Assembly (NCBI RefSeq): GCF_003574735.1
Contig: NZ_QORW01000029.1
Location: 1-54,568 of the forward strand
Length of the DNA: 54,568 bases
Direction of reading: 5' to 3'
Source of the DNA: Dongia deserti
GTDB taxonomy: Bacteria; Pseudomonadota; Alphaproteobacteria; Dongiales; Dongiaceae
The notes beneath the pieces are model-generated. The model ran no database searches. It was not told the DNA's origin and worked only from the letters and a program-made list of their open reading frames with translations. Below are positions 242 to 20,535 of the stretch, one piece after another. The position numbers were made by a program, and so were the translations under genes. The first letter of the stretch is position 1; each line of letters opens with the position of its first letter.

Positions 242-1168
242 ATGACCGCCGGCGCACTCCACGACATCGACCTGAAGCTGCTCCGTGTCTTCGCCGCAGT
301 GGTGGAGCATGGCGGTTTCGGGCCGGCCCAGGCTGTTCTGAACATCAGCCTGTCGCGCCTCAGCTCGATGATCGCGGAGCTGGAACGGCGGCTCGGCGTG
401 CGGCTCTGCCATCGCGGGCGCGTCGGTTTCCGCCTCACCGATAAGGGCGCGCAGGTCTATCAATCCAGCCTGAAGCTCATGAACAGCCTGGAAGGGTTCC
501 GCGCCGAGGTGGGCGCACTGCGTGGGCGGCTGGTTGGCAAGCTCTCCATCGGCATGGTCGACAACATCGTCAGCAATCCGGAATGCCGGTTGAGCGAGGT
601 CATCAGTCGCTTCTGCGCACGCGACCAGGAGGTGCGCGTCTCGCTCCACATCGATGCGCCGCCGGAGCTCGAGCAACGCGTCATGGACGGGCGTCTAGAC
701 CTGGTGATCGGTGCCTTTCACCACACGCTGCCCGCACTCGAGTACCGCCCGTTGTTCGAGGAAGAGCAGACGCTCTATTGCGGCGCCAGCCATCCCTTGT
801 TCCGGCGCGCCGATGCATCGATCGCGCTCGAGGATGTGCGGGCGGCATCGTATGCCGGCCGCGGCTATCCCGAAGAGACGCTCCCCATCCAGCTGAAGCC
901 CGCGACCACGTCGGACTCGATGGAGGGGCTGGCGATGTTCGTCCTGTCCGGCCGCTTCATCGCGTTCCTGCCGACGCACTACGCCTTGCAGTGGGTCGAG
1001 CGGGGCCAGATGCGCCCCATCCTTCCGCGCCGCCTCGCCTACCGCTCGCAGTTCCACGCGGTCATCCGCAAGGCCGGCATACCGACCTTGGTGATGCGGG
1101 CATTTCTCGCCAATCTGGTGGAGGCGCACGCGAGGAAGCGATCAAGGCGCAAAATCGGGCAACCGTAA
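242..1168 (+). CDS. LysR-family transcriptional regulator
   Basis: A 308-residue protein of normal LysR length. The amino-terminal winged helix-turn-helix covers about residues 8-67, with the typical pattern LLRVFAAVVEHGGF and an ELERRLGVRLCHR recognition/wing region. It is followed by a linker helix and a periplasmic-binding-protein-like effector domain from about residue 95. It is transcribed away from the ureohydrolase gene, and the 102-base A+T-rich spacer must hold both promoters; this is the classic arrangement for a LysR activator and its target. The ATG at 242 has no strong Shine-Dalgarno sequence, but the next residues fit the family start well. The co-inducer cannot be read from the sequence; a guanidino or amine compound is only a guess from context. 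Confidence 0.88.
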   Translation: MTAGALHDIDLKLLRVFAAVVEHGGFGPAQAVLNISLSRLSSMIAELERRLGVRLCHRGRVGFRLTDKGAQVYQSSLKLMNSLEGFRAEVGALRGRLVGKLSIGMVDNIVSNPECRLSEVISRFCARDQEVRVSLHIDAPPELEQRVMDGRLDLVIGAFHHTLPALEYRPLFEEEQTLYCGASHPLFRRADASIALEDVRAASYAGRGYPEETLPIQLKPATTSDSMEGLAMFVLSGRFIAFLPTHYALQWVERGQMRPILPRRLAYRSQFHAVIRKAGIPTLVMRAFLANLVEAHARKRSRRKIGQP

Positions 1169-1489: not shown

Positions 1490-2590
1490 TCAGTATTTTT
1501 TGTACACGCGATTCTGATTGATGGCGATGTGCATGTATGCATCCGTCCCTGGACCGACGCACCGCCCCTGATTTCGGGCCCGATCCTCGCGGACAAGCAC
1601 AGATTGACCATCTCGTGTCGCCACTTCGTAACTGATCGTATCACCCAGAAATATCCTCTCACGCACAGTAACCGGAATGACTGCGCCCGCCGCATCGCTT
1701 AACGCATGCGATAGCTTGATCTCCTCGGGACGGATCATGATCCTCACTTCGCTTCCGACGCCTCCAACAGCGTCGACAGGGACGCACACCGCGCTGTTCT
1801 CTCCCAGCTTAACAATCGCTGCGTCGCTCCGGCGCTCAGCCACGGAGCCGCGGAGGAAATTGGAGTTGCCGATGAAGCCGGCAACAAAGGCGGTAGCTGG
1901 ACAATGATAGAGATCCTCGCCGCTCCCCACCTGGACTATGCGCCCATGCTCGAACACGGCGATCCGGTCGCTCATGCGTAACGCCTCCTCCTGGTCGTGG
2001 GTGACGTAGAGGATGGTGACGCCGAGCCGGTGGTGCAGCTTGCGGATCTCGATCTGGATCTCCTCGCGCAGCTTCTTGTCGAGCGCGCCCAATGGCTCGT
2101 CCATCAGCAGCAGCTGCGGCTCATAGACCAGGGCGCGCGCCAGCGCGACGCGTTGCTGCTGGCCGCCCGACAGCTGGCTGGGCCGCCGCCCGGCGAAGCG
2201 GTCGAGCTGCACCAGGCGCAGGGCGTCGAGCACACGGCTGTTCACCTCGTCCTTGCTCAGGCGTCGGACCGAGAGCGGGAATCCGACGTTTTCGGCGACA
2301 GTCATGTGGGGAAAGAGGGTATAGCGCTGGAACACCATACCGATGTTGCGCTTCTGCGGCGGCAGGCCGGTCACCGCGCCGCCGTTGAGCAGGATCTGGC
2401 CGCTGGTCGGATCGTCGAAGCCGGCGATCATGTTGAGCGTCGTGGTCTTGCCCGAGCCGCTGGAGCCGAGGAAGGTCAGGAACTCACCCTTGCGCACGTC
2501 GAGCGAAACGCCGTCCACCGCTGCGAAGTCGCCGTAACGTTTGTGCAGATCCATCAGCCGGACGGCGGGAAGAGGCGTGTCCATTTTCAT
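1490..2590 (-). CDS. ABC transporter ATP-binding protein, polyamine/PotA type
   Basis: ATPase of a PotABCD-like importer, 366 residues. Visible motifs are Walker A (GSSGSGKTT), Q-loop (VFQRYTLFPHMTV), signature LSGGQQQRVALARAL, Walker B (LLLMDEPLGALD) and the switch histidine in VTHDQEEAL. A carboxy-terminal TOBE-like regulatory segment covers about residues 270-366. The start at 2590 was chosen because it gives a four-base ATGA overlap with the upstream permease stop; longer upstream in-frame sequence is permease shadow. It is the last gene of the nine-gene leftward operon. It should energise uptake of the substrate bound by the product of the gene at 4290. Polyamines are the family default, but the operon context suggests the real ligand may be the compound degraded by the neighbouring enzymes. 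Confidence 0.9.
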   Translation of the reverse strand: MKMDTPLPAVRLMDLHKRYGDFAAVDGVSLDVRKGEFLTFLGSSGSGKTTTLNMIAGFDDPTSGQILLNGGAVTGLPPQKRNIGMVFQRYTLFPHMTVAENVGFPLSVRRLSKDEVNSRVLDALRLVQLDRFAGRRPSQLSGGQQQRVALARALVYEPQLLLMDEPLGALDKKLREEIQIEIRKLHHRLGVTILYVTHDQEEALRMSDRIAVFEHGRIVQVGSGEDLYHCPATAFVAGFIGNSNFLRGSVAERRSDAAIVKLGENSAVCVPVDAVGGVGSEVRIMIRPEEIKLSHALSDAAGAVIPVTVRERIFLGDTISYEVATRDGQSVLVREDRARNQGRCVGPGTDAYMHIAINQNRVYKKY

Positions 2591-3402
2591 TGCATTTTGC
2601 TCCGGCCGGCGCGTGTCGCGCTCAGTCCCAGCAGGGCCATCAGGATCAGCGAGGCCAGCACCAGCAGCGTGGACGCTGCGGCGATCACCGGCGTGAGGTC
2701 GCTGCGCAGCGAGGTCCACATGCGCACCGGCAAGGTCTGCAGCTGCGGGCTGGCCATGAAGATGCTCACCACCACCTCGTCCCAGGACGCCAGGAAGGAA
2801 AAGACCGCCGCCGCCAGGAGGCCGGGCGCGATCGACGGAATGGTCACGCGGCGCAGCGTCTCCAGCCGTCCCGCGCCGCAGATCGCCGCCGCCTGCTCCA
2901 GAGCGGGATCGAAGCCGCGCAGCGAGTTGCTGATGCAGATGACGGAGAACGGCACCGCGATGATGAGATGCCCGGCGACAAAGCCGGCGAAGGTGCCGTT
3001 CAGCCCGACCTTGAGCGAGAAGGCATAGAGCGCGATCGCGACGATGACCACTGGAACGATCATCGGCGCCACGAAGAACGCCTTCAGGACCCGCCGGCCG
3101 GCGAAGCGGCCGCGCACCAGCGCGAAGGCTGCGGCGCCGCCCAGGAGGACCGACAGGACCGTGACGATGAGCGCGAGGCGCAGGCTAAGCCACATCGCCT
3201 CGGCCCAGCGCGGATCGGTCGCCAGCTCCTCGTACCAGCGCAGCGTCCACTCGGGCGGCGGGAACATCATCCAGCGCGACGATCCGAAGGACAGCAGCGC
3301 GATGAAGATGATCGGCAGTAGCAGGAACGCCATGACCAGCACCGCATGCCCATAGAGCACGAAGCGGAACAGCCCCAGCCTGTTGCGCGTCAGGATCATC
3401 AC
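2587..3402 (-). CDS. ABC transporter permease (PotC/second inner-membrane subunit type)
   Basis: A 271-residue integral membrane protein with about six hydrophobic segments. The first is LVMAFLLLPIIFIALLSF near residue 20. The central cytoplasmic EAA-like loop (residues about 175-200, ALEQAAAICGAGRLETLRRVTIPSI) docks onto the ATPase. It pairs with the permease at 3399 to form the channel of a polyamine-type importer. The start overlaps the preceding permease stop by four bases and the stop overlaps the ATPase start by four bases, so all three are translationally coupled. Membership of the binding-protein-dependent permease family is secure; the PotC label is by position and length. Confidence 0.88.
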   Translation of the reverse strand: MMILTRNRLGLFRFVLYGHAVLVMAFLLLPIIFIALLSFGSSRWMMFPPPEWTLRWYEELATDPRWAEAMWLSLRLALIVTVLSVLLGGAAAFALVRGRFAGRRVLKAFFVAPMIVPVVIVAIALYAFSLKVGLNGTFAGFVAGHLIIAVPFSVICISNSLRGFDPALEQAAAICGAGRLETLRRVTIPSIAPGLLAAAVFSFLASWDEVVVSIFMASPQLQTLPVRMWTSLRSDLTPVIAAASTLLVLASLILMALLGLSATRAGRSKMQ

Positions 3403-4229
3403 GCATCCTCATCGAGATAGCGCATGTGCAGCGCGTAGAGCGCGAGGGTCGCACACAGCAGGACCAGCGCGGCCGCGGCGCCCAGCCCCCAGTTCAGGAA
3501 GGATTGCACCGTCTGTGCGATCAGCTCCGCCAGCATCATGTTGCCGGTGCCGCCCAGCAGCGCGGGCGTCACGTAGTAGCCGAGCGACATCACGAACACC
3601 ATGAGCCCCGCTGCGCCGATGCCCGGCAGGCTGAGTGGCAGCAATACGCTGCGGAACAGCCGCCACGGGCTGGCGCCGCAGACGGCGCCGGCATGCATCA
3701 AGGCCGGGTCGAGGGTCGCCAAGGTCGCGCGCAGCGGCAACACGACAAAGGGCAGCATGATGTAGGTCATGCCGATGACGACCCCGGTCAGGTTGTTGAC
3801 CAGCGGCAACGGCGCATCGATCACGCCCACGGACAGCAGGATGCGATTGATGACTCCGGTCTTCTGCAGCAGCACCAGCCAGGCGTAAGTGCGCGCCAGC
3901 AGGCTGGTCCACATGGACATGAGCAGGATCGCCAGCAAAACCTGCTGCCAACGCGCCGGCAGCATCACGAGCAGCCACGCCAGCGGGTATCCGATCAGCA
4001 GCGACATCAGGGTGACGACTGCCGCCACCAGGAAGGTGTTGAACAGTACGCGCGCGTAGGTCCCGGTCGCCAGCAAGTCTGAGAAGTTCTGCAGTCCCCA
4101 TTGCGGATCGGTGACGCTGCGCAGCATCAGGGCGCCGACCGGCAGGGCGAAGAACACGAACAGAAACGCGATCGCCGGCCAGGCCGCGCGTGCTTCCCTG
4201 AATGTTCCCGATGTCGCCGCTGCGTTCAT
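3399..4229 (-). CDS. ABC transporter permease (PotB/first inner-membrane subunit type)
   Basis: A 276-residue membrane protein with an amino-terminal transmembrane helix (IAFLFVFFALPVGALML) and further helices. It carries the permease coupling loop ALMHAGAVCGASPWRLFRSVLLPLSLPG at about residues 180-207. It is the partner of the next permease in the operon. It begins 60 bases after the binding-protein gene; that gap contains a perfect stem-loop (4251-4283), so translation of the membrane subunits is physically separated from that of the abundant binding protein. Substrate is not determined by the sequence. Confidence 0.88.
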   Translation of the reverse strand: MNAAATSGTFREARAAWPAIAFLFVFFALPVGALMLRSVTDPQWGLQNFSDLLATGTYARVLFNTFLVAAVVTLMSLLIGYPLAWLLVMLPARWQQVLLAILLMSMWTSLLARTYAWLVLLQKTGVINRILLSVGVIDAPLPLVNNLTGVVIGMTYIMLPFVVLPLRATLATLDPALMHAGAVCGASPWRLFRSVLLPLSLPGIGAAGLMVFVMSLGYYVTPALLGGTGNMMLAELIAQTVQSFLNWGLGAAAALVLLCATLALYALHMRYLDEDA

Positions 4230-4250
4230 GGCTCTCGGATCCAGAAAAGT

Positions 4251-4283
4251 GGGCGCGCCGGACCGGGAGGTGCCGGCGCGCCC
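4251..4283 (-). promoter_or_regulatory. Intercistronic stem-loop after the binding-protein gene
   Basis: Arms GGGCGCGCCGG (4251-4261) and CCGGCGCGCCC (4273-4283) pair perfectly over 11 bp with an 11-nt loop. The structure lies just after the stop of the solute-binding protein gene in the leftward transcript and has only a short T-rich tail. It probably acts as a partial terminator or a 3' exonuclease barrier that keeps binding-protein mRNA more abundant than permease mRNA. Confidence 0.7.
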
Positions 4284-4289
4284 GTTGAG

Positions 4290-5312
4290 CTACTTCGCTT
4301 GCCAGTCGTACCAGCGCTTGCCGATCTCGTCCCTGTGTTCCGCCCAGTAGTTGAGATCGAGGGTGATCTGCGTCTCCGCATGCTGCGAGGGCATCAGCGG
4401 CACCAGGTCCTTGTTCAGCAACGCCTCCGACTTTAGGTTGACCGGCGCATAGGCGGTGGCGTTGGCTAGGTCGGCTTGGCCCTGCGCGCTGGTGGCGAGG
4501 GCGATGAACTTCATCGCCGCTTCCTTGTTCTTGCTACCCTTCGGCACCACCAGAAAATCGGCGGTGGCGAGATTCTGCTCCCACACCGCGTCGACCGGCG
4601 CGCCTTCCTTCTGCAAGGCATAGATGCGGCCGTTCCAGAACATGCCGAGCGGCGCCTCGCCCGAGGCGAGCTGCTGCTGGGACTCGGCGCCGCTGCCCCA
4701 CCACAGAATGTCCTTCTTGATGCTGTCGAGCTTGGCGAAGGCGCGGTCGAGGTCGAGCGGATAGAGCTTGTCGGGCGCCACGCCATCGGCCAGCAGCGCG
4801 ATCTCCAGCACGCCTGGTGATGCCCATTTGTAGAAAGTGCGCTTGCCGGGGATCTTGGCGGTGTCGAACAGATCGGCCCACGAGGTTGGGACCTGGTCGC
4901 CGATGGCCTGCGGGTTGTAGCCGAGCACGAAGGAGAAATAGAAGCTGCCGATGCCATGCTCGAACACAAAGCGCGGATCGATGTCCTTCTTGTCGATCAC
5001 GCTGAAGTCGAGCGGCTCCAGCAATCCCATCTTTGCGGCCTGGTAGGCGAAGTCCGGCTCGACGTCGACCACGTCCCAGTCGACCTGGCCGCTGTCTACC
5101 ATGGCCTTGAACTTGCCGTAGTCGGTCGGTCCGTCCTGCAGCACCTTGACCTTGTATTCGGCTTCGAACTTGTCGGCCCAGGCTGCTTTCTGCGCGTCCT
5201 GGGTGGTTCCGCCCCAGCTCGTGAACGTGATGCTATCCTCGGCCAGCGCGCCGGACGTGGCGCCGATCGCCAGAATGGCGGCTCCCAAGAGCCGCTTGAT
5301 CTTCACTCCCAT
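4290..5312 (-). CDS. Periplasmic substrate-binding protein, PotD-like (spermidine/putrescine family)
   Basis: A 340-residue exported protein. A Sec signal peptide covers residues 1-24 (KRLLGAAILAIGATSGALA, cleavage before EDS). The mature start ITFTSWGG is typical of the PotD/PotF cluster. The chosen ATG at 5312 is preceded by a strong GAGGAGG Shine-Dalgarno sequence; in-frame sequence further upstream is not part of the protein. It captures the transported solute in the periplasm and delivers it to the two permeases downstream. It lies 38 bases behind the NIPSNAP gene, inside the catabolic operon, which implies the imported molecule is the pathway substrate. Polyamine binding is possible but not shown. 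Confidence 0.88.
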   Translation of the reverse strand: MGVKIKRLLGAAILAIGATSGALAEDSITFTSWGGTTQDAQKAAWADKFEAEYKVKVLQDGPTDYGKFKAMVDSGQVDWDVVDVEPDFAYQAAKMGLLEPLDFSVIDKKDIDPRFVFEHGIGSFYFSFVLGYNPQAIGDQVPTSWADLFDTAKIPGKRTFYKWASPGVLEIALLADGVAPDKLYPLDLDRAFAKLDSIKKDILWWGSGAESQQQLASGEAPLGMFWNGRIYALQKEGAPVDAVWEQNLATADFLVVPKGSKNKEAAMKFIALATSAQGQADLANATAYAPVNLKSEALLNKDLVPLMPSQHAETQITLDLNYWAEHRDEIGKRWYDWQAK

Positions 5313-5350
5313 CGTAACCTCCTCGGTTTCGTTGTTGTTGTGGTGTGCCC

Positions 5351-5665
5351 TCAAGCAGGCGGCGAGAACGGCGCCGGCTTCATGATCTTGTTCTCCATCG
5401 TCTCGATGTGGCTCTGGATGCGCGGCAGAATCGCCTGCCACCTAGGATCAGCGGCGAGCGTACCGCGCCGGCGCTCGCGGTCGGCGAGGTCCTCGTAAGC
5501 CCAGATGTGCACGATCTCGTTCAGTGGCCCGATCTCGGAATGGAAGTAGCCGATAAGCCTGCCGAGATGGCCACGCTGAATCGCGATCCCTTCCTCCTGG
5601 ACCAGCCGGAGATAAGCGGGAACCGCTCCGCTCTTCAGGCGATAGGTGCGGATCTCGTAGATCAT
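5351..5665 (-). CDS. NIPSNAP-family protein
   Basis: A 104-residue protein beginning MIYEIRTYRLKSGAVPAYL and continuing to VHIWAYEDLADRERRR, the standard signature of the NIPSNAP ferredoxin-like dimeric barrel. The family often accompanies catabolic oxygenase and dehydrogenase operons, but its biochemical role is mostly unknown. Its start codon overlaps the stop codon of the aldehyde dehydrogenase gene (TGATG-type overlap at 5665), so it is translationally coupled to that enzyme. It may bind or isomerise a small intermediate of the pathway; this is inference. The family call is confident. Confidence 0.85.
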   Translation of the reverse strand: MIYEIRTYRLKSGAVPAYLRLVQEEGIAIQRGHLGRLIGYFHSEIGPLNEIVHIWAYEDLADRERRRGTLAADPRWQAILPRIQSHIETMENKIMKPAPFSPPA

Positions 5666-7140
5666 CAGCGCATCACGAACGGATCGGGGATGGGGTCATC
5701 GGAGGTGCGGATCCACACCGCCTTGCTGCGGGTGTAGTCGCGGATCGAGTCCGCACCGCCTTCGCGGCCGAGGCCGGACAGGCCGAATCCGCCGAACGGC
5801 GCCAAGGGCGAGATCGCGCGGTAGGTGTTGACCCACACGATGCCGGCGCGGATGCGGCGCACCAACCGATGCGCGCGCGTCAGGTCGCGGGTGAAGACGC
5901 CGGAGGCGAGGCCATAGCGCGTGTCGTTCGCCAGCGTCACAGCCTCCTCCTCGCCATCGAACGCGATCACGCTCAGCACCGGGCCGAACAGCTCCTCGGC
6001 GACGCACGGCACCTGGTTGTTGGCGCAAGCGACGATGGTGGGCTCGAAGTAAAAGCCGTCCTTGCGGTCGGGTGGAATCTGGCCGCCGGTCAAGATGCGC
6101 GCGCCGGAAGCAACGCTCTGGCTCAGCAGCGCTTCAATATGTGCGCGCTGTCGTGCCGTCGCCAGCGGCCCCATCTCGGTAGCCGGATCCTGCGGATCTC
6201 CCATACGGATGGCGCGCGCCTTCGCGACCAGCATATCCACCAACTTGTCGTAGATTGGCCGCTCGACATAGAGTCGTGAGCCGGCGACGCAGCTCTGTCC
6301 GGTTGCGGCGAAAATGCCGGCCACGATCGCATTGGCGACACTGTCCAGGTCGGCGTCGCGGAACACCAGCACCGGCGACTTGCCGCCGAGTTCGAGCGAG
6401 ATATTGGCGAGATTCTCTGCGCTGTTATGCACGATCTGTTGCGCGGTTGCCGGTCCGCCGGTGAAGGCGATGCGCGCTACCAACGGATGCGAGGTCAGCG
6501 CCTTGCCGCAGCTCTGGCCGAAGCCGGTGAGGATGTTGACGACGCCCTTGGGGAACCCAGCCTGCTCCACCAGCTTGCCGAACTCGAGCAGCGGCGCCGG
6601 TCCCTCTTCGGAGGCTTTCAGCACCACCGTGCAGCCGGCCGCCAGCGCCGGCGCGAGCTTGACCGCGGACAGGAAAAGCTGCGAGTTCCACGGCACGACT
6701 GCGGCGACGACACCGATGGGCTCGCGGCGCAGATATACTTCCATGTCCGGCTTGTCGATCGGCAGGTGCGCGCCCTCGGCCTTGTCGGCGAGGCCGCCGA
6801 AATAGCGGTAGAAGTCGGCGATGTAGCCGATCTGCGCGCGCGTCTCGCGGATGATCTTGCCGGTATCGCGCGTCTCCAGCTCCGCCAGCCGCGGCGCATG
6901 CTCGGCCAGCAGGTCGCCGAGCTTGTAGAGCAGCTTGCCGCGTTGCGTCGCGGTCAGGCCCGCCCATGCCGCATCGCTCAACGCGCGATAAGCGGCGCGC
7001 ACGGCGCGGTCGGTGTCCACCGCGCTGGCGGCGGGCATGACGGCCCAGGCCCCGCCGGTCGAAGGATCGATGCTCTCGAACGTTTCGTCTGTGTCGACGA
7101 ATGCACCGTCGATGTAGCAGCGGAAGCGTGGGAGCGTCAT
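5665..7140 (-). CDS. NAD(P)-dependent aldehyde dehydrogenase
   Basis: A 491-residue enzyme of normal ALDH-superfamily length. Visible catalytic features are the Asn in VVPWNSQL, the general-base Glu in LELGGKSP, the nucleophilic Cys in GQSCVAGSR, and the cofactor motif FTGGPATAQQI. It oxidises an aldehyde to the carboxylate using NAD(P). The ATG at 7140 (MTLPRFRCYIDG) was chosen; in-frame sequence beyond it overlaps the LLM gene and is not conserved-looking. The gene sits 16 bases behind the monooxygenase gene, so its likely substrate is an aldehyde released after monooxygenation and hydrolysis. The family is certain; substrate is unknown. Confidence 0.92.
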   Translation of the reverse strand: MTLPRFRCYIDGAFVDTDETFESIDPSTGGAWAVMPAASAVDTDRAVRAAYRALSDAAWAGLTATQRGKLLYKLGDLLAEHAPRLAELETRDTGKIIRETRAQIGYIADFYRYFGGLADKAEGAHLPIDKPDMEVYLRREPIGVVAAVVPWNSQLFLSAVKLAPALAAGCTVVLKASEEGPAPLLEFGKLVEQAGFPKGVVNILTGFGQSCGKALTSHPLVARIAFTGGPATAQQIVHNSAENLANISLELGGKSPVLVFRDADLDSVANAIVAGIFAATGQSCVAGSRLYVERPIYDKLVDMLVAKARAIRMGDPQDPATEMGPLATARQRAHIEALLSQSVASGARILTGGQIPPDRKDGFYFEPTIVACANNQVPCVAEELFGPVLSVIAFDGEEEAVTLANDTRYGLASGVFTRDLTRAHRLVRRIRAGIVWVNTYRAISPLAPFGGFGLSGLGREGGADSIRDYTRSKAVWIRTSDDPIPDPFVMR

Positions 7141-7156
7141 GAGCAGCCTCGCTTTC

Positions 7157-8194
7157 TCAGCGGAACGCCGGCAGGACATGCCGAATGAAGAGATCGAGCG
7201 ACTTCTTCTTGCGCTCATGGCTGATGCCGCTGTCGATCCAGATGGAATACTGGTCGTAGCCGAGCTGCTCGTAGCCCTTCAGGCGCTGGACGACTTCGTC
7301 CGGCTCACCGATCACCAGGGTGCGCCGCACGACGTCCGGCGCGTAGTTCGGCATCGCAGCCATCTCGGCCTCGCTGAGCGGGTCCATGATGCCCTGATGG
7401 ATCGGCCGCTTGTTCTGGAACCAAGCGCCGAACATGCAATAGAAGACGCTGAGGTCCTTGGCCAGGCGATCGGTCTCTGCGGCCGAGTCTGACACGAAGG
7501 TGTGCTGCAGCAGCATGATCTGCGGCCGAGCCCGCTCCGGATGATTGGCGCACGCTGCGTTGAAGCGCGTCATCAGGCTCGCCACCTCCTCGTCGCCGGA
7601 GGCGAGCGGCGTCACCTGCACGTTGCAACCCTTGCCCACCGCGAAGTCGTGCGAGCTGGGATCGCGCGCGGCGATCCAGATCGGCGGCCCGGGCTGCTGC
7701 ACTGGTTTGGGCGATGTGGTGGTGGTCGGGAACTTCCAGAACTCGCCGTCATGGGCATAGTCGCCCTGCCACAGCCGCTGGATGGCCGGCACCATTTCGC
7801 GCAGCCGCTTGCCAGCGCCCATCGCATCGAGCCCCGGCAACAACCGCTCATATTCAAAGGAATAGGCGCCACGCGCGATGCCTAGGTCCAGCCTGCCGCC
7901 GGTCGCGAGGTCGGCCAATGCCGCCTCGCCCGCCAGTTTGATGGGATGCCAGAACGGCGCGATGATGGTGCCGGTGCCGAGCCGGATCTTGCGCGTCCGG
8001 CCGCCAAGGTAGGCGAGATGAATGAAGGGATTTGGCGCGATGGTGAATTCCATCGCGTGATGCTCGCCGATCCAGGCGGTCTCGAAGCCCGCCTCTTCCG
8101 CCATGAACACCAGTTCCTCGAGCTCGGCGAACAGCTCGGCATGCGGCTTCGCCGTATCCGGGCGTTCCATATGCACGAACAGGGAAAAGCGCAT
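7157..8194 (-). CDS. LLM-class flavin-dependent monooxygenase (bacterial luciferase-like)
   Basis: A 345-residue luciferase-fold protein. The amino end (MRFSLFVHMERPD), the AWIGEHHAMEF strand and the block IRLGTGTIIAPFWHPIKLAGEAA are hallmarks of the luciferase-like monooxygenase superfamily, as is GRLDLGIARGAY at about residue 100. These enzymes use reduced FMN delivered by a separate flavin reductase to oxygenate a small organic substrate. Here the reductase domain is encoded immediately upstream as part of a fusion protein (12-base spacer). The combination parallels RutA with RutF in pyrimidine catabolism. RutA orthology is not claimed; overall similarity is only to the superfamily. Confidence 0.9.
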   Translation of the reverse strand: MRFSLFVHMERPDTAKPHAELFAELEELVFMAEEAGFETAWIGEHHAMEFTIAPNPFIHLAYLGGRTRKIRLGTGTIIAPFWHPIKLAGEAALADLATGGRLDLGIARGAYSFEYERLLPGLDAMGAGKRLREMVPAIQRLWQGDYAHDGEFWKFPTTTTSPKPVQQPGPPIWIAARDPSSHDFAVGKGCNVQVTPLASGDEEVASLMTRFNAACANHPERARPQIMLLQHTFVSDSAAETDRLAKDLSVFYCMFGAWFQNKRPIHQGIMDPLSEAEMAAMPNYAPDVVRRTLVIGEPDEVVQRLKGYEQLGYDQYSIWIDSGISHERKKKSLDLFIRHVLPAFR

Positions 8195-8206
8195 GTCGCC
8201 GGTCTC

Positions 8207-9946
8207 CTATGCCTGCTTGGCGAGCGCCTGCACGGTGCCGCGCTCTGCATCGCCGATATAGACGCCGAAGGTGTCCTCGGTCCGCTCATGCACGTAGCGC
8301 CGCAGCATGGAGCGGATCGCATCGTCGCGCAGGCCGGCCCACGGAATCTGGTCGAGCGGAATGACGCGCAGCCCGGCCGCTTGGGGCATAGGCGGTGTAA
8401 GCGCGCCGCGATAATAGACACTGACAGAGCCGGCGCCGCTGCGCGGATCTTCGAACACCGCGAACAGGAAGCCAAGCTGCGCCGAAACGCCGAGCCGGCG
8501 CAGCGTGCCGTTGAGGCTGCTGGGGTCGCTGCCCGGCTCCAGGCTGATACCCTCGGGCAGATCGAAGCGGTCGCCGTCCGCCAGGAACAGGATGCCGTCT
8601 TCGCTCTCCAGGATCGCGCCGACGCGCGGGCGCGCTGCCGCCAGTGCCGCTTGCGACAGGCCGAAGGTGACATAGGCGCCGCGGCAATAGCCGAGCGGAT
8701 TGGCGGGCGTATCGCCGAAATCCACCACGCGTCCGATCAGGATCGCATGGTCGCCGGCATCGACCAGGCTGTGCTTGCGGCAATCGAACCAGGCGGTCGC
8801 GCCGCTGATCACCGGATTGCCGTTGCCGGACACATGCCAGGACGCGCGCTCGAACTTGTCGGCCGCCTTGGACGCGAACAGGCCCGAGGTGTCGCGCTGA
8901 TGCTCCGCCAACACGCTGATGGCGAAGCTGTCCGCCTCGGAGAAAACCACGTAGCTGGACGCGCTCTTGGCGATGCAGACCAGGACCAGCGGCGGGTCGA
9001 GCGAGACCGACGTGAAGGAGTTGGCCGTGAAACCGCGCGGCCCGCCATCGCGCTGCTTGGTCGCCACTACCGTGACGCCAGTCGCGAAAGCGCCAAGGGC
9101 GCGACGGAGGGATCTGCTGTCGATCTCGGATGTGCTTGCCAGGAAGCCGAGCAGCCGCTTGTTCACCTCCTCCGGCGCAGTCAGCGACATCATGTGCCGC
9201 TCGCCGGATAGGACTTCACAGCGACCGTTCTGCGCTTCCGACGCCATGATGCGCGACATCTCGAGCGTCGAATTGGGATCGCCGTCGCCGGTCATGAACA
9301 GGCTCGGCGCACGCAATTGCGTGAGTCGCCCGCGATGCGCCCCATCCGCAGTGGCGAATAGACGATAGGTGCGCTGGTAGCCGCGCGGATCGACCGCGCT
9401 CAGCAAGCGCCGCGTGGTGGCCGCAGCGGCCGCCATCCGCTCCGGCACCGGGTCACCGAACCACCGTGCGATCGTTCCGTCGATGGTCTCCAGGTGCCCG
9501 CCTTTTTCCAGGACCGCCGCGCGTGTCTCCACCGCCGATCGCTGCTCTGCCGACCTGCAATAGACGGCGTTCAGCGCAGCGATGCTCAAGATGCGATCCG
9601 GATGGGACAGCGCAAATTCCAGCACCACCAGGGCGCCCATGGAGTGGCCGACCAAGTGCGCACACGCGATGCCCAGCCCGTCCAAGACGGCAAGCAGCTG
9701 GTCCGCATAGTCGGACAGGCGCGCGTCACGCGGCGGCAGGTCCGAACCGCCATGCCCCAGCATGTCATATGCAACGACATCATACCGCTGGCTCAGGGCC
9801 TCGATCTGCGGCCGCCAGATCTCGGCGGACATGCCGACGCCATGCACCAGAATCACCGGCTGGCCCTGGCCCGCGCGCAAGCCGGTGGTCGCGCCGGTCT
9901 CGCCATCGCGTAAGGCATGCCGAAAGCGGATCGGCTCAGACGGCAT
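8207..9946 (-). CDS. Three-part fusion: alpha/beta hydrolase + flavin reductase + Nudix-like domain
   Basis: A 579-residue protein. Residues 1-270 are an alpha/beta hydrolase with the oxyanion motif HGVGM, nucleophile Ser102 in GHSMG, probable acid Asp221 or Asp223 and His251 in GERHMMSL. Residues about 279-430 are an HpaC/RutF-like FMN reductase (RRALGAFATGVTVVAT, GFTANSFTSVSLDPPL, GDHAILIGRVVDF). Residues 440-579 start RPRVGAILE and contain ILFLADGDRFDLPEG, resembling a degenerate Nudix fold without a full Nudix box. In the Rut pathway the hydrolase (RutD) and flavin reductase (RutF) are separate proteins. The start at 9946 overlaps the upstream gene by 11 bases. The reading frame is continuous, so the fusion looks genuine. 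It probably supplies reduced FMN to the adjacent LLM enzyme and cleaves its product. Confidence 0.85.
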   Translation of the reverse strand: MPSEPIRFRHALRDGETGATTGLRAGQGQPVILVHGVGMSAEIWRPQIEALSQRYDVVAYDMLGHGGSDLPPRDARLSDYADQLLAVLDGLGIACAHLVGHSMGALVVLEFALSHPDRILSIAALNAVYCRSAEQRSAVETRAAVLEKGGHLETIDGTIARWFGDPVPERMAAAAATTRRLLSAVDPRGYQRTYRLFATADGAHRGRLTQLRAPSLFMTGDGDPNSTLEMSRIMASEAQNGRCEVLSGERHMMSLTAPEEVNKRLLGFLASTSEIDSRSLRRALGAFATGVTVVATKQRDGGPRGFTANSFTSVSLDPPLVLVCIAKSASSYVVFSEADSFAISVLAEHQRDTSGLFASKAADKFERASWHVSGNGNPVISGATAWFDCRKHSLVDAGDHAILIGRVVDFGDTPANPLGYCRGAYVTFGLSQAALAAARPRVGAILESEDGILFLADGDRFDLPEGISLEPGSDPSSLNGTLRRLGVSAQLGFLFAVFEDPRSGAGSVSVYYRGALTPPMPQAAGLRVIPLDQIPWAGLRDDAIRSMLRRYVHERTEDTFGVYIGDAERGTVQALAKQA

Positions 9947-10523
9947 TGCCGCCCAGCTCCTTCAAGTCCTGGTAACGGTCGCCGATGCGATGGTGCGGCC
10001 GCCCGCCGATCGAGGCGCCGAGCGCGACCACGATCTCGTCCGGCGTCGGAGCGTCGAGGATCGAGAACTGCACCGTGAGATAGTGCGAGCGCATGCTCTC
10101 GTCGTGCTTGTGCATCAGCGGAATGACGATCGGGCAGTCGGGTCCGCCGCGCGTGTTGGTGAAGCTGAGATAGCTCTTCGCGCCCACCGCCTTGCGATAG
10201 TGGTTGCCGAAGCGCAGCGTGTGGATGAGCGCCGAGGCATGCTCGACCTCGCCCGCCGTCCCGACCACTGCCGCCTTGCCATAAGCCTCGACCGCGTCGC
10301 CCGACCCGGCCAGCTCGAGGATGCGCGCCGTGAGGAGCTCGCCTAGCACTGGCGCGATCGCATGGATCTCTGGCTTTAAATCATCGACGAAGCCGTGCCC
10401 GGCCCAGGGGTTGGCGAGAACGGCGCAAACGCCGAACAGCTGCAAGGGCTTGGGCGCCACCCGCTCGCCCTCGATCAGGGTCTCTTCCTTGTAGGTAACG
10501 ATCTTGCGGATCTTCGCGTCCAT
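9936..10523 (-). CDS. AA_synth / DUF1185 family protein
   Basis: A 195-residue protein with the family features: MDAKIRKIVTYKEETLIEGE at the start, VLANPWAGHGFVDDL, an AVEAYGKAAVVGTAGEVEHA core and HKHDESMRSHYLTVQFSI. The family is annotated as amino acid synthesis; known structures show a variant of the chorismate-mutase-like fold, and no reaction is established. It is the first gene of the leftward operon, 88 bases from the divergent GntR gene, and overlaps the fusion gene by 11 bases. Its position at the head of an oxygenase/hydrolase operon suggests it acts directly on the ring or amide substrate or its first product. That function is inference only. Confidence 0.82.
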   Translation of the reverse strand: MDAKIRKIVTYKEETLIEGERVAPKPLQLFGVCAVLANPWAGHGFVDDLKPEIHAIAPVLGELLTARILELAGSGDAVEAYGKAAVVGTAGEVEHASALIHTLRFGNHYRKAVGAKSYLSFTNTRGGPDCPIVIPLMHKHDESMRSHYLTVQFSILDAPTPDEIVVALGASIGGRPHHRIGDRYQDLKELGGNAV

Positions 10524-10556
10524 CGCGCCTCGCTCCGGCTTCTTGCGTTTTCGGTA

Positions 10557-10572
10557 TTATGGTATACCATAA
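10557..10572. promoter_or_regulatory. GntR operator: perfect 16-nt palindrome
   Basis: TTATGGTATACCATAA is a perfect inverted repeat in the 87-base spacer between the operon head (start 10523, leftward) and the GntR gene (start 10611, rightward). The core GGTATACC matches the style of operators bound by FCD-type GntR regulators. It lies 34 bases upstream of the leftward start and 39 bases upstream of the rightward start, so it can repress both promoters. Regulation by the adjacent GntR is inference. Confidence 0.82.
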
Positions 10573-10610
10573 GATCGGCAGTCAAGAAGATCTTGCGTAT
10601 AGGCGAGTCG

Positions 10611-11369
10611 ATGGGTCCTATTCCGGGCATGGTGATGAGCGACGAATTGGCGGCCGAACCGGATGAGCTGCGCGTTGAGCGCAGCGCGAAGACCCTGCGC
10701 GGCTTGGCGCTGGAAAAAATGCGCGATGCCATCCTCGAATTCCGGTTGCGGCCGGGAGAGCGACTGGTCGAGCGCACCTTGTGCGAGCGCCTCGGCGTCA
10801 GCCGGACCGTGGTGCGCGAGGTGTTGCGCCACCTGGAGGCCGAAGGCCTGGTGGAATCCATCCCGCAGCAGGGGCCGGCGGTGGCGCGGCCGGATCCCGC
10901 CAAGGCCGACCAGATTTACGAGTTGCGCGGCCTGTTGGAAGCCGAGGCCGCGCGCGCCTGCGCGGAGCGGGCGACGCCGGCCGATGTGAAACGCCTCGCC
11001 GCCGCCATCGACCGGATCGAGCAGGCCTTCGCCCAGCACAGCCCGCGCGACGTGATCAAGATGACGACTGCCTTCTACGAGATCCTATTCGCGTGCGCCG
11101 GCAAGCAGGTGGCGTGGGACGTGGTGCAGTCGCTCAACGCGCGGATCAACCACCTGCGCGCCATGACGATCTCCACGCCCGGCCGCGCTAAGGCCGCAAT
11201 CGGCGAGATGCATCGCATCCTAGATGCGATTCGCAAGCGAGATGTCGACGGCGCCTACCGCGCCAGCGTCGACCATGTGCAGACGGTGGCTGAGCTCGCG
11301 CGGAACGCACTCCTGAGCAACCGTGGCAGCGCCTCACCGGAGCAGCAAAGTGCGGCTCGCGCCAAATAA
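10611..11369 (+). CDS. GntR-family regulator, FadR/FCD subfamily
   Basis: A 252-residue repressor. The winged helix-turn-helix covers about residues 20-90 (LALEKMRDAILEFRLRPGERL, then ERLGVSRTVVREVLRHLEAEGLV). An all-helical FCD ligand domain follows, starting at IYELRGLLEAEAARACAE and carrying the helix GEMHRILDAIRKRD with the metal-binding-type histidine. The ATG at 10611 is chosen because it lies just after the palindromic operator; upstream in-frame sequence is the shadow of the divergent gene. Starts at 10632 or 10638 remain possible. It most likely represses the nine-gene catabolic operon and itself until an organic-acid metabolite of the pathway binds. Confidence 0.9.
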   Translation: MGPIPGMVMSDELAAEPDELRVERSAKTLRGLALEKMRDAILEFRLRPGERLVERTLCERLGVSRTVVREVLRHLEAEGLVESIPQQGPAVARPDPAKADQIYELRGLLEAEAARACAERATPADVKRLAAAIDRIEQAFAQHSPRDVIKMTTAFYEILFACAGKQVAWDVVQSLNARINHLRAMTISTPGRAKAAIGEMHRILDAIRKRDVDGAYRASVDHVQTVAELARNALLSNRGSASPEQQSAARAK

Positions 11370-14881: not shown

Positions 14882-15235
14882 TCACACGAGGCCAAGTTCG
14901 AGCCGCGCCGCTTCCGACATGCGCGACTTATCCCAAGGCGGGTCCCACACGAGTTCGACGTTGACGCTGGTGACACCGTCCACCGCAGAGACCTTCGCCT
15001 CCACTTCCGCGGGCATCATGCCCGCGGCTGGGCAATTCGGTGTCGTCAGAGTCATCTTGAGGTCGACCACGCCCTGGTCGGTGACACCAAGTTCGTAGAT
15101 CAGCCCCAGTTCGTAGATGTTGACCGGAATCTCCGGATCATAAACCGTATGCAGCACTGCCTCGACCCGCTCGCGCAGGGTCGGCTCGGACGCCAAACCC
15201 GCTTCGTAGTTCTTTTTGTCATCCGCCGACGTCAT
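14882..15235 (-). CDS. sufT: SUF-associated MIP18/DUF59 protein SufT
   Basis: A 117-residue DUF59 protein with VLHTVYDPEIPVNIYELGLIY, the defining DPEIPVN motif at about residues 33-39, and TLTTPNCPAAGMMP carrying the conserved Cys. SufT helps insert or mature Fe-S clusters, particularly under high demand. The start at 15235 overlaps the sufU stop by four bases (ATGA), which rejects the longer upstream frame. It is the last gene of the suf operon. The family call is strong. Confidence 0.92.
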   Translation of the reverse strand: MTSADDKKNYEAGLASEPTLRERVEAVLHTVYDPEIPVNIYELGLIYELGVTDQGVVDLKMTLTTPNCPAAGMMPAEVEAKVSAVDGVTSVNVELVWDPPWDKSRMSEAARLELGLV

Positions 15236-15690
15236 TCTGTTTTCACCGGCTCTGAGACATGGTCCAGGGCTGCGACCAGCGTATGCCACGGCAAGGTCGC
15301 GCACTTGACGCGCACGGGAAACTCACGCACCCCGGCGAAGACGGCGAGCTTGTCCAGTTCGGCGAGCGCACTCAGGGCGGCACCCTCATCCGTCACAGTG
15401 AGCCCCGCATGAAATTCTTCGAACATCGCGCGGACCTCAACCTCGGTCTTGCCCATGATCGCCTCGGTCATCAGTGAGGCCGATGCCATCGAGATGGCGC
15501 AGCCGCCGCCTTCGAACCGCACATCCGCAACCCGACCATCCGCGATCGTGAGGGTCACCGTCACCTTGTCGCCGCACAGCGGGTTATGGCCGGCCGCGCG
15601 ATGGCTGGGTCCGTGAATCGCGCCGAAATTCCGGGGCCGCCTGGCATGGTCCAGGACGACTTCCTGGTAAAGGTCACGGAGCTCGTTCAT
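15232..15690 (-). CDS. sufU: SufU-type sulfur transfer / scaffold protein
   Basis: A 152-residue IscU-fold protein. Conserved Cys39 (NPLCGD), Asp41, Cys64 (GGGCAISMASASLMTEA) and Cys130 (VKCATLPWH) form the zinc/sulfur site. The insertion of about 20 residues before the last Cys (around GLTVTDEGAALSALAEL) distinguishes SufU from IscU. In Bacillus it accepts persulfide sulfur from SufS. It starts in a four-base overlap with sufS, consistent with the SufS-SufU partnership. The SUF operon here contains SufU but no SufE or SufA, an arrangement better known from Gram-positive bacteria. Confidence 0.92.
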   Translation of the reverse strand: MNELRDLYQEVVLDHARRPRNFGAIHGPSHRAAGHNPLCGDKVTVTLTIADGRVADVRFEGGGCAISMASASLMTEAIMGKTEVEVRAMFEEFHAGLTVTDEGAALSALAELDKLAVFAGVREFPVRVKCATLPWHTLVAALDHVSEPVKTE

Positions 15691-16940
15691 AGCCGGAACA
15701 TCTCCTGGACCTTGCCCAGGCCGGCGACCAAGGCATCGACGTCGTCCCGGTCGTTGTAGATGCCGAAAGAGGCGCGGGCCGTCGCCGAGACGCCGAACCG
15801 GTCCATCGTTGGCTGGGCGCAATGATGTCCGGCGCGAACGCAGATACCGTCCTGATCCAGGATCGTGCCGATATCATGAGGATGCACGTCGCCCAGCGCG
15901 AAGGAGATTACGCCAGACCGGTGGCGTGGCTGGCCGATAATGCGCAGCGAGTTGATCTTCGACAGCTCACGCAGCGCATAGGCCAGCAGAGCGTCCTCAT
16001 GAACCCCGATGGCATCGTAGCCGATCGACTGTACATAGTCGATCGCGGCCCCGAGCCCGATCGCGCCGATGATATGCGGCGTGCCGGCCTCGAACTTCCA
16101 TGGCAACTCGTTGTACTCCGTCTTCTCAAAGGTGACGGACCGGATCATATCGCCGCCGCCCTGCCATGGCGGCATCGCCTGCAACAGCTCCGCCTTGCCG
16201 TAGAGCACGCCGATTCCAGTTGGCCCATACAGCTTATGGCCGGAGAGGACATAGAAGTCGCAGTCTAGCGCCTGAACATCGACCGCTTGGTGCGGTACCG
16301 CCTGACATCCGTCGACCAAAACCGGGATGCCATGTTCCTTGGCGAGGCGGATCACCCGTTCAATCGGCACCACGGTGCCGAGCGCGTTGGCAACATGGGT
16401 GAGCGCAATCAGCTTGGTGCGCGGCCCGATCAGTTTCTCGAAGGTCTCCAGATCCAGCTCGCCCGCGTCGTCGATCGGCGCCACTCTTAGTTGTACGCCC
16501 TTCTCTTCGCGCAGCATCTGCCAGGGCACGATATTCGAATGGTGCTCCATATGACTGATCAGCACCTCGTCGCCCGCCGACAGGAAGGCGCGGCCGAAGC
16601 TTTGCGCCACCAGGTTGATCGCCTCCGTAGCGCCGCGCACGAACACGATCTCGCGCGTCTCGCGCGCATTCAGCAGTCGACGGACCTTTTCGCGCACAGC
16701 CTCGAACTCACTGGTGGCACGCTGGCTCAGCGAGTACACGCCGCGGTGCACGTTGGCGTATGCGGTCTCATAAATGCCGCGTTCCGCCTCCATGACAGAG
16801 CGCGGCTTCTGTGCACTCGCCGCACTGTCGAGGAATACGAGCCGCTTGCCGTGGACCGGTTGGGAAAAGATCGGGAAGTCCTGCCGGATGCGCGCGACAT
16901 CCAATTCCCGGAGATTGGTCAGAGGCTGCATCGCAGTCAT
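15687..16940 (-). CDS. sufS: Cysteine desulfurase SufS
   Basis: A 417-residue pyridoxal-phosphate enzyme that removes sulfur from cysteine as a protein persulfide. Visible features: VFLDSAASAQKP near the amino end, THVANALGT, the PLP-lysine motif LSGHKLYGPTGIGVLYGK, and the catalytic cysteine in RAGHHCAQP. It overlaps sufD upstream and sufU downstream by four bases each. Its sulfur goes to SufU and then to the SufBCD scaffold. Confidence 0.95.
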   Translation of the reverse strand: MTAMQPLTNLRELDVARIRQDFPIFSQPVHGKRLVFLDSAASAQKPRSVMEAERGIYETAYANVHRGVYSLSQRATSEFEAVREKVRRLLNARETREIVFVRGATEAINLVAQSFGRAFLSAGDEVLISHMEHHSNIVPWQMLREEKGVQLRVAPIDDAGELDLETFEKLIGPRTKLIALTHVANALGTVVPIERVIRLAKEHGIPVLVDGCQAVPHQAVDVQALDCDFYVLSGHKLYGPTGIGVLYGKAELLQAMPPWQGGGDMIRSVTFEKTEYNELPWKFEAGTPHIIGAIGLGAAIDYVQSIGYDAIGVHEDALLAYALRELSKINSLRIIGQPRHRSGVISFALGDVHPHDIGTILDQDGICVRAGHHCAQPTMDRFGVSATARASFGIYNDRDDVDALVAGLGKVQEMFRL

Positions 16941-18268
16941 GGCCGGCCTCCGTCTGCTAGCCAGTGGTCGAAGGCACGACGAAAGTAGGTGCGAGCCGAG
17001 TCGACGGTGATGTGCTCGATCAGCTCTCCGATGAAGGCGTCGATCAACACGCTGCGCGCCTCGGCCTCGCCGACGCCGCGAGTGCGAAGATAGAAAAACG
17101 CCTCCTCATCGAGATCGCCGATCGTGGCGCCATGGCTGCACTTCACATCGTCGGCCAGGATCTCCAGTTCCGGCTTGGTGTCGGCAGCGGCCGTCTTGGA
17201 CAAGAGCAGGCTGCGACTGATCTGCTGGGCATCGCTCTTCTGCGCGTCAGGCGCGACGCGGACGCGGCCCTGGAAGACAGCATGTGCACGCCCGTCCACC
17301 ACGTTCTTGAACTCCTGGCCGCTGGTGCCACGGGGCATGGAATGCTCTATGCGCACAGTCGTATCGAGATGCTGCGCGCCGCGTGCGAGCGTCGTCCCAG
17401 CAAGCCGTGCCACAGCCTCGGTCGCGGCAAGGTCCACGTCGACCTCGTTGCGGCCGAGTTGCGAGCCCAGCGACGCGGCGAACATGCGATAGGCGGCTTG
17501 GTGGTCCAGCCGCACCGACGTCTCGGCCACGTGGAAAGCCGCACTGCCTTCCGCCTGCAGCTTGTAGTGCCGCAGGACCGCGTTCGGCGCGACGTCGATC
17601 TGGGTCACGGCGTTGGTCCAGTACGTGCCTTCCCCAAGGCACACGTAGGATTCCAGCACGGTGGCACTCGAGCCTGCCTCGGCTCGGATCAGATTGCGCA
17701 GATGGAAGGCCGCCGGTTCGGCTTCGGGCAAGGCGACGAACAGCAACTGCACCGGGTCAAGAATGGCGCCGCGCCCTAGATGCACGACAGCCCCACCGCC
17801 CATACATGCGGTATTGAGATCGAAGAGGGTCCGCGCCCGCGGCTCCACTGCCACGGCGGGCGGTGCGATCAAGGCCTGCAAATCGTCTTCGCCGGCGGCG
17901 ACAAGGTCCACGACGCGCGTTCCGTCGGGAACATGGTCGAGAGCGGACAGATCAGGTCGAAACCGGCCGTTCACAAACACGATGAGGTGACAGTCCGGCG
18001 TCAGCCTATACGGTTCAAGGTCAACGCGCGTGATTTTCCGGCCCTTGGTCGCCTCAGCGCTACGGAATGTCGTGCGGGCAAGCGGGCTGAGGTTCGTGAA
18101 TTTCCAGGACTCCAGCTTGGGCGACGGAAATCCGTCCTCGCGGAAGCGCTCCATGGCCGCCTCTCGGACGCCATCAAGCCAAGCGGGACTCTTGCCCAGA
18201 TGCTCACGTCCGGCGGATGGCCGGAAATCGCTCGCTTTGTGTGGGGTGTTGACATTCATGGCTGGCAC
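16937..18268 (-). CDS. sufD: Fe-S scaffold subunit SufD
   Basis: A 443-residue SufD protein. The carboxy-terminal beta-helix core includes EFKNVVDGRAHAVFQGRVRV, the block ILADDVKCSHGATIGDLDEEAFFYLRTRG and a terminal helix. The SufD hallmark Cys-Ser-His-Gly (KCSHGATIG) is present. It partners SufB and SufC in the SufBC2D scaffold that assembles Fe-S clusters. Spacing to sufC is 13 bases and its stop overlaps sufS by four bases. Length is normal. Confidence 0.94.
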   Translation of the reverse strand: MPAMNVNTPHKASDFRPSAGREHLGKSPAWLDGVREAAMERFREDGFPSPKLESWKFTNLSPLARTTFRSAEATKGRKITRVDLEPYRLTPDCHLIVFVNGRFRPDLSALDHVPDGTRVVDLVAAGEDDLQALIAPPAVAVEPRARTLFDLNTACMGGGAVVHLGRGAILDPVQLLFVALPEAEPAAFHLRNLIRAEAGSSATVLESYVCLGEGTYWTNAVTQIDVAPNAVLRHYKLQAEGSAAFHVAETSVRLDHQAAYRMFAASLGSQLGRNEVDVDLAATEAVARLAGTTLARGAQHLDTTVRIEHSMPRGTSGQEFKNVVDGRAHAVFQGRVRVAPDAQKSDAQQISRSLLLSKTAAADTKPELEILADDVKCSHGATIGDLDEEAFFYLRTRGVGEAEARSVLIDAFIGELIEHITVDSARTYFRRAFDHWLADGGRP

Positions 18269-18281
18269 TCGCGATCGCCGT

Positions 18282-19034: not shown

Positions 19035-19056
19035 GCCGTCCATTTCCTCTCTTGTG

Positions 19057-20520: not shown

Positions 20521-20535
20521 TGTCGGTCTCGATCC

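Follow-up and report, generated by a model that had tools for sequence, protein, structure and literature searches.

What compound is taken up and broken down by the products of the nine genes that occupy positions 1490-10523, on the minus strand, of a Dongia deserti contig (NZ_QORW01000029.1, 54,568 nucleotides, this whole stretch being referred to below as the window)? A preliminary description had read these genes as a Rut-like oxidative catabolic operon with its own importer, possibly undescribed and possibly related to polyamine metabolism. All nine open reading frames (ORFs) were found where that description had placed them, and Pfam searches bore out its domain assignments; a divergent GntR/FCD regulator, a sigma-70-like promoter match and a palindrome lying on that promoter had gone unmentioned (Table 1). 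Adjacent genes overlap or are separated by at most 60 bases (the start of the aldehyde dehydrogenase, ALDH, being taken as 7140), and it is plausible that the nine form a single transcript. As detailed below, sequence comparisons indicate, with a probability of about 0.84, that this is an operon of the tgn/trc kind for the uptake and ring opening of trigonelline (N-methylnicotinate), a compound made by plants. The pathway is already known from other bacteria and the operon as such is no discovery; the window holds a variant of it, with a fused hydrolase-reductase, a NIPSNAP protein and an ATP-binding cassette (ABC) importer.

The suggestion that the operon might be undescribed does not hold for its catabolic part, as a pathway for this gene set is in print: the trigonelline (tgn) pathway of Acinetobacter baylyi (PMC7913881, PMC8269262, PMC11354265). 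Trigonelline degradation was worked out in A. baylyi strain ADP1 (PMC7913881). TgnA and TgnB open the ring (PMC8269262), TgnB being a flavin-dependent trigonelline monooxygenase grouped with luciferase-like proteins (PMC11354265). The genome used for comparison, found in a search of named genomes, was that of A. baylyi DSM 14961. There, a divergent GntR gene is followed by genes for a DUF1185 protein, a hydrolase, a flavin reductase, a luciferase-like monooxygenase (LLM) and an ALDH, and then by further genes; the corresponding window proteins stand in the same order, with identities ranging from 39% for the reductase to 63% for the DUF1185 protein. Only the A. baylyi cluster has, downstream, a semialdehyde dehydrogenase together with what we take to be an NCS1 permease and a porin and, upstream, a DUF1330 match; only the window has the ABC importer, the NIPSNAP protein and the fusion.

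On pSymA of Sinorhizobium meliloti 1021, all nine functions are present in the order seen in the window, followed by a second dehydrogenase. Most genes are 55-70% identical to those of the window, the hydrolase and reductase 39-42%. An S. meliloti pSymA record that carries annotation has nodL and noeA close to the locus and labels the second dehydrogenase a succinate-semialdehyde dehydrogenase. The two loci differ in several respects: the hydrolase and reductase are separate genes in S. meliloti and fused in the window; the regulator stands in line in the annotated strain and is divergent in the window; the S. meliloti locus ends with a semialdehyde dehydrogenase, which the window operon lacks; and the S. 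meliloti LLM, although 61% identical to that of the window, falls in another branch of the LLM tree. Each S. meliloti plasmid record among the matches listed has one LLM place at E <= 1e-60. Wild-type S. meliloti grows on trigonelline while a strain lacking pSymA does not (PMC4207669), and induction under symbiotic conditions is stated for S. meliloti genes by Boivin et al. 1990; these reports do not name this locus. The pSymA locus probably corresponds to the trc genes. Its importer genes, at about 15934-19622 of the pSymA stretch retrieved (L015) and within this probable trigonelline operon, are presumably SMa0799-803, or potABCD2; the record used carries no locus tags. In print, SMa0799-803 bear the name potABCD2, with putrescine as the substrate meant, and are counted among the genes essential for symbiosis (PMC7268258).

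A gene-order search of the kind proposed in the preliminary description showed that the genes are co-conserved. We used 80 genome loci, the best 80 of at least 535 confirmed relatives; as the query alignment was headed by an LLM from an Acinetobacter plasmid, these loci favour close kin of the query and are not a random sample. The exact order DUF1185-hydrolase-reductase-LLM-ALDH was found in 75 of the 80. The five exceptions comprise two loci with two consecutive hydrolase matches (L032, L057), a 3.3-kb contig (L053), a locus without an in-line reductase match (L042) and one without in-line hydrolase and reductase (L102). DUF1185 is present at 79 loci and a GntR match lies near 72. Counting genes up to about 10 kb away, 32 loci have an ABC binding protein, 28 an NCS1 permease, 54 either and, by subtraction, six both; a TgnE-like dehydrogenase was found at 26 and N-methylglutamate genes at 10. 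NIPSNAP occurs near 17 loci and DUF1330 near 52 (counts uncorrected for kinship of the loci) and, because the two were never found at one locus, they appear to substitute for each other.

The tgn pathway reportedly yields methylamine and succinate semialdehyde, its intermediates being credited to Perchat et al. 2018. Putative genes for the use of both expected products are present elsewhere in the window genome: contig C18 encodes a TgnE-like semialdehyde dehydrogenase 60% identical to that of A. baylyi, and grouped at 268-280 kb of contig C1 are homologues of N-methylglutamate dehydrogenase (52%), an N-methylglutamate synthase subunit (74%) and GMAS (43%). Flanking the operon in Aquabacterium olei are a succinate-semialdehyde dehydrogenase gene and genes whose annotations, type III glutamate-ammonia ligase and glutamate-synthase-like subunits, we take to denote GMAS and N-methylglutamate synthase. 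N-methylglutamate-pathway genes adjoin the operon in Aquabacterium, Azospirillum and one Agrobacterium genome.

From the gene content, the synteny with A. baylyi (with its sequence identities) and with S. meliloti pSymA, the presence of the downstream genes and the conserved palindrome, all of them observed, we infer the substrate, reactions, importer ligand and repression as follows. The ABC importer would take up trigonelline, a zwitterionic N-methylpyridinium carboxylate, and the LLM monooxygenase would open the pyridinium ring using reduced flavin supplied by the reductase half of the fusion. The ALDH would then oxidise the ring-opened aldehyde, and the hydrolase half would split what we take to be N-methylformamido-methylene succinate, releasing methylamine, succinate semialdehyde and one-carbon products. 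Degradation would be completed by the semialdehyde dehydrogenase and N-methylglutamate pathway encoded elsewhere in the genome. The GntR protein would act as a repressor at ATGGTATACCAT, relieved by the binding of substrate or an intermediate, and the DUF1185 and NIPSNAP proteins would act as accessories. Homarine was considered as a substrate and set aside, TgnA/TgnB being described as unlikely to act on it owing to steric hindrance (PMC8269262); according to the same paper, Ruegeria pomeroyi grows better on trigonelline than on homarine. Of 54 genomes searched in that genus group, none has the 2QTP protein at 100% identity, the best match being 94%.

The promoter match before the first gene, TTGACT-18-CATAAT, was found once, against 0.1 expected from shuffled sequences. 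The palindrome that it overlaps is ATGGTATACCAT, at 10559-10570, and WTGGTATACCAW has a single occurrence in the 6.1-Mb genome, at this place; this uniqueness is uninformative because a reversed-pattern control also occurred once, and the evidence for the site comes from its conservation. We examined 94 upstream regions, the window included and three of them from the Burkholderiaceae locus L094. A loose pattern, TGGTNNACCA, is present in the roughly 400 bases upstream of DUF1185 in 71 of these, with TA at its centre in 71/71, and most of the remaining regions show one or two mismatches to ATGGTATACCAT, with L047 showing three and L054 no match worth naming. At most two mismatches to ATGGTATACCAT were found within 160 bases upstream of DUF1185 in 91 of the 94 regions, versus 58 of 4700 random segments from the same loci, some of which may overlap real sites. 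The GntR protein is thus predicted to bind the palindrome. In the Atu4243-bearing genome discussed below (L137), mirror-image palindrome-like sites are found at 5371, before extra transporter genes, and at 9136, before DUF1185, which suggests a regulon of at least two units.

The solute-binding protein (SBP) of the importer has its best relatives of solved structure in 4EQ7/4EUO, 6DGV and 9D57 (phmmer E 1.2e-140 for 4EQ7 and 2.4e-130 for 6DGV). 4EUO is Atu4243 (PMC6829864), while Pf622 is the scaffold of the gamma-aminobutyric acid (GABA) sensor iGABASnFR, with 6DGV and 9D57 named alongside it (PMC12999171). The window SBP is about 65% identical to a protein identical to Atu4243 and 69% identical, over 274 columns, to Pf622, which is its nearest row in a quick tree where both branches are long and the join is flagged as unsure. 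The residues named for the GABA site of iGABASnFR2 are T13, F100, Y102 (F102 before engineering), W202, R205, D228 and Y264 (PMC12999171). All seven, a list that may be incomplete, are kept in the window SBP as T37, F124, F126, W226, R229, D252 and Y288, and the last four are invariant in 28/28 aligned rows (27 of 31 relatives plus the window, one row being a 33% outlier). The model predicted from this alignment has a local distance difference test score (pLDDT) of 90.5. By sequence, then, the window SBP belongs to the Atu4243/Pf622 clade, and it may bind GABA.

Members of this clade are found with the same catabolic genes. Among 39 genomes from the genus to which Agrobacterium rosae (L095) belongs, the SBP is carried by 16 at E <= 1e-100, in one of them (G049) as a protein 100% identical to the 4EQ7 chain. 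Around this Atu4243-identical gene lie genes for N-methylglutamate synthase, GMAS, a GntR protein, other transporters, a TgnE-like dehydrogenase and the full operon (DUF1185, hydrolase, reductase, LLM, ALDH, NIPSNAP, SBP, permeases and ATPase). Twelve stretches from the 16 SBP-bearing genomes hold DUF1185, hydrolase, reductase, LLM and ALDH in 12/12 cases. Counted over plus-strand ORFs and the NIPSNAP gene, the GntR gene precedes the SBP gene by 11 genes and, because this spacing fits the numbering of Atu4232 and Atu4243, it is probably Atu4232. The operon is thus present in full in an Agrobacterium genome, and the literature connects the Atu4232 regulon and Atu4243 with GABA. There, repression of atu4243 by the Atu4232 protein is said to be total and its derepression is left unexplained (PMC3907764). 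No statement of the type of protein that Atu4232 is was found in the literature searched. Among 398 genomes drawn across the phylum, eight besides the window's own carry the SBP at E <= 1e-90, with genes for LLM, DUF1185, hydrolase, reductase and ALDH no more than 20 kb away in every case. Two of these SBPs (L160, L161) are 96% identical to the Pf622 stretch and those of two further loci 84-85%; all four loci also hold an NCS1 permease. The 96% relatives lie next to the five catabolic genes; in contrast to the window, gene order at these loci is rearranged and NCS1 and ABC genes are both present. On plasmids, LLM and SBP lie within 12.5 kb of each other in 27/27 records common to both listings (94 LLM and 71 SBP rows from larger match sets, sister-clade and partial rows being left out), and within 3.1 kb in 24.

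Because the SBP travels with pyridinium ring-opening genes, trigonelline may be the natural ligand of the SBP clade, with GABA a mimic and Atu4243 and Pf622 subunits of trigonelline importers. We give this a little less than an even chance, having lowered our estimate from even odds on account of the second transporter in four of the eight drawn loci and of PA0222, which has a like pocket in another operon. As part of this proposal, the pocket, lined by aromatic residues and holding a single Arg and a single Asp, would have evolved for an N-methylpyridinium carboxylate, and GABA binding in vitro might be explained by a similar spacing between positive charge and carboxylate. In the literature searched, which covered few subscription papers, trigonelline was not found together with Atu4243, Atu4232, iGABASnFR or SMa0799.

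Several points weigh against a trigonelline operon. The A. baylyi tgn names were assigned here by order and family to an unannotated record, and the same A. baylyi stretch holds a second LLM-like ORF at 19311-20702. TgnE is encoded outside the window operon, and methylamine genes were found near only those 10 of 80 relatives, adjacency not being required. The window LLM belongs to a small branch distinct from the S. meliloti and A. baylyi branches, Caballeronia pedi carries both LLM types side by side, and the reported ligand of the studied relatives of the SBP is GABA. The last point raises the question of whether the importer serves GABA and not trigonelline, and is placed here since both compounds end at succinate semialdehyde, which we consider rather unlikely. 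Atu4243 and Pf622 bind GABA, and the seven contact residues kept in the window SBP fit such a role. So does PA0222 of Pseudomonas aeruginosa, which is 33% identical to Atu4243, matches it exactly or closely at the recognition residues, binds GABA at 290 nM and is tied in print to a different operon (PMC6829864); this also speaks against trigonelline as the ligand of the clade. An NCS1 permease, perhaps able to carry trigonelline, stands alongside the ABC genes in four of the eight drawn loci (L157, L158, L160, L161) and in six of the 80, and where both are present trigonelline could enter through NCS1 and GABA through the ABC importer. On the other hand, all eight drawn SBP carriers hold the catabolic genes, 22 of the 80 loci have an NCS1 permease without the SBP, as if the two were alternatives, and there is no aminotransferase among the ten ORFs scanned.

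The position of the LLM bears on another possibility, that the same chemistry serves in the window branch to open a different N-alkylpyridinium, 1-methylnicotinamide and N-methylpyridinium being examples. The LLM tree places the window with Mesorhizobium amorphae (97/91) and Azospirillum B510 (95/94); copies from Paraburkholderia, Caballeronia and Aquabacterium are close by, and the S. meliloti and A. baylyi groups lie elsewhere. A long outgroup branch makes the rooting unsure, and five of the eight sister-type loci L002-L009 (L003, L004, L005, L007 and L008) were left out as only plus-strand matches were used. The window LLM is 60% identical to that of A. baylyi versus 42% to that of the sister operon described below. 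Because of the separate branch and the presence of both types at one Caballeronia pedi locus, the substrate of the window branch may have shifted. In Burkholderiaceae, window-type reductase and sometimes hydrolase genes stand beside the other type, and the SBPs of this branch cluster somewhat (2 changes versus a shuffled mean of 4.6). However, the window SBP is 59-69% identical to those of loci in its own or the neighbouring LLM branch and 59-68% to the others, with no clean sorting; Azospirillum, in the same branch, and Aquabacterium, in the neighbouring one, also have the operon beside N-methylglutamate genes; and the palindrome is identical across branches. We therefore regard a different pyridinium substrate as improbable. 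Five Burkholderiaceae loci (L094, L040, L045, L074, L102) hold both operon types side by side, complete or in part. Of the preliminary reading, an oxidative catabolic operon with its own importer stands, and the opening of a nitrogen-containing ring is very likely; the Rut-like and polyamine parts fare differently. The window shares with the Rut pathway a two-component LLM chemistry and a hydrolase, and the likeness ends at LLM monooxygenase, flavin reductase and hydrolase: the RutD and RutF models match far below their cut-offs (98.8 versus 238.5 and 90.2 versus 254.75), and no Rut model, RutA included, is among the 25 listed of 29 LLM matches. RutB and RutC, already said to be missing, have no family member among the ten ORFs scanned. 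A Rut-like pathway acting on pyrimidines, hydantoins or lactams is barely credible, given the far closer match to trigonelline clusters and the contradicting synteny with A. baylyi and S. meliloti. An operon for polyamine import and catabolism, for its part very improbable, finds some backing in the ATPase, which passes the cut-off of the PotA subfamily model (373 versus 356 bits), in sub-threshold PotD, PotB and PotC matches and in the published potABCD2 name. Yet the PotD model scores 70 bits versus 582, the solved structures closest to the SBP and its close relatives Atu4243 and Pf622 are GABA binders, and the SBP was found with the pyridinium gene set in 20/20 loci fetched for this question.

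The idea that the fusion marks the window branch was considered and dropped: besides the window, L013, L156 and L159, two loci of other branches (L043, L056) have it, and the two genes are unfused in L016, L022, L023, L024 and the window-type copy of L094. By this distribution, the fusion appears to have arisen or been lost more than once. Among 17 genomes of the window's order, a full-length fusion match was found in the window's own only, with two others matching the reductase half. As the fusion is rare in its own order and the best relatives are on plasmids of other orders, the data suggest horizontal gain. A Pantoea eucrina plasmid (L017) and an Acinetobacter venetianus plasmid (L021) carry an identical LLM, with matching neighbourhood and replicon type, reflecting either recent intergeneric plasmid transfer or a mislabelled record. 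A sister operon type (L019 6466-12255 on an Agrobacterium pAt plasmid, L028 and L002-L009) has an LLM 39-44% identical to that of the window; in L019 it comprises reductase, ALDH, hydrolase, a carboxymuconolactone-decarboxylase-like protein, NIPSNAP and DUF1185 and adjoins a ProXWV betaine importer, from which one might guess at a betaine-like N-heterocycle as its substrate.

The window DUF1185 protein matches PF06684 at 230.6 bits versus a gathering score of 27, and its predicted model (pLDDT 87, built from 29 of 78 listed relatives plus the window) matches the structures 3byq and 2qtp. Chorismate-mutase-like and YjgF folds are grouped together. A role for DUF1185 as a RutC/RidA stand-in was considered and dropped, as the model matched two DUF1185 entries only (E <= 0.001) and no RidA was among the 50 listed of 480 matches. 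DUF1185 had been described as lacking an assigned reaction, and none was found in the literature searched; the family is nonetheless not a blank, as a DUF1185 protein has been described as a homologue of TgnF, for which stimulation of succinate-semialdehyde oxidation by TgnE is reported, while the same paper could see no such stimulation with its own DUF1185 protein, HcdD (PMC7913881). The reductase half of the fusion matches 3RH7, as does the S. meliloti reductase over 311 residues (E 2e-203). Its C-terminal stretch of about 150 residues (8207-8660), shared with 3RH7, is without a Pfam family, and besides 3RH7 has one weak PDB match, 3f13 (E 0.44). A Nudix-like domain was considered for it and is at best weakly hinted at, with no Pfam match in the window or S. 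meliloti and a spurious one (E 0.16) in A. baylyi.

Table 1. The operon and its control region in the window, with the basis of each assignment.
Feature	Position	Strand	Basis
DUF1185 / PF06684 protein (TgnF-like)	9936..10523	-	Pfam E 1e-68; 63% to A. baylyi member
Alpha/beta hydrolase-flavin reductase fusion	8207..9946	-	Pfam; 40% (hydrolase) and 39% (reductase) to two distinct A. baylyi genes
Fusion halves: TgnD-like hydrolase, residues ~1-268; TgnA-like reductase with extra C-terminal stretch, residues ~273-579			
LLM flavin-dependent monooxygenase (TgnB-like), proposed ring opener	7157..8194	-	PF00296; 60% A. baylyi, 61% S. meliloti
Aldehyde dehydrogenase (TgnC-like)	5665..7140	-	PF00171; 61% A. 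baylyi, 68% S. meliloti
NIPSNAP protein	5351..5665	-	PF07978
Periplasmic SBP, Atu4243/Pf622 clade	4290..5312	-	SBP_bac_8
ABC importer permease	3399..4229	-	PF00528 (BPD_transp_1)
ABC importer permease	2587..3402	-	PF00528 (BPD_transp_1)
ABC importer ATPase	1490..2590	-	PF00005 (ABC_tran) and PF08402 (TOBE_2)
GntR/FCD regulator, divergent, proposed repressor	10611..11369 (ORF 10395-11369; start 10611 probable)	+	PF00392 and PF07729
Operator-like palindrome ATGGTATACCAT, perfect	10559..10570	.	Conserved upstream of DUF1185
Sigma-70-like promoter match	10556..10585	-	10/12 consensus positions; overlaps palindrome

Elsewhere in the window, at 15232-20520, a reading of the ORFs points to a SUF iron-sulfur assembly cluster (SufB, SufC, SufD, SufS and SufU-like).

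What is new here is that the clade of a "PotD-like" SBP (Atu4243, Pf622), its regulator and a shared operator-like site are tied to the trigonelline pathway. One conserved operon thereby links three separate bodies of literature, on how rhizobia and Acinetobacter use trigonelline, on how Agrobacterium takes up GABA selectively and on a GABA sensor of neuroscience, and this group of DUF1185 and NIPSNAP proteins is tied to one pathway. If the proposal is true, the Atu4232 regulon would be a trigonelline regulon, derepressed by trigonelline or an intermediate, and its inducer becomes directly testable. Likewise, potABCD2 of S. meliloti would be an importer of trigonelline and not of putrescine, which calls into question the putrescine label on a symbiosis-essential transporter, and a possible cross-reacting ligand is predicted for iGABASnFR.

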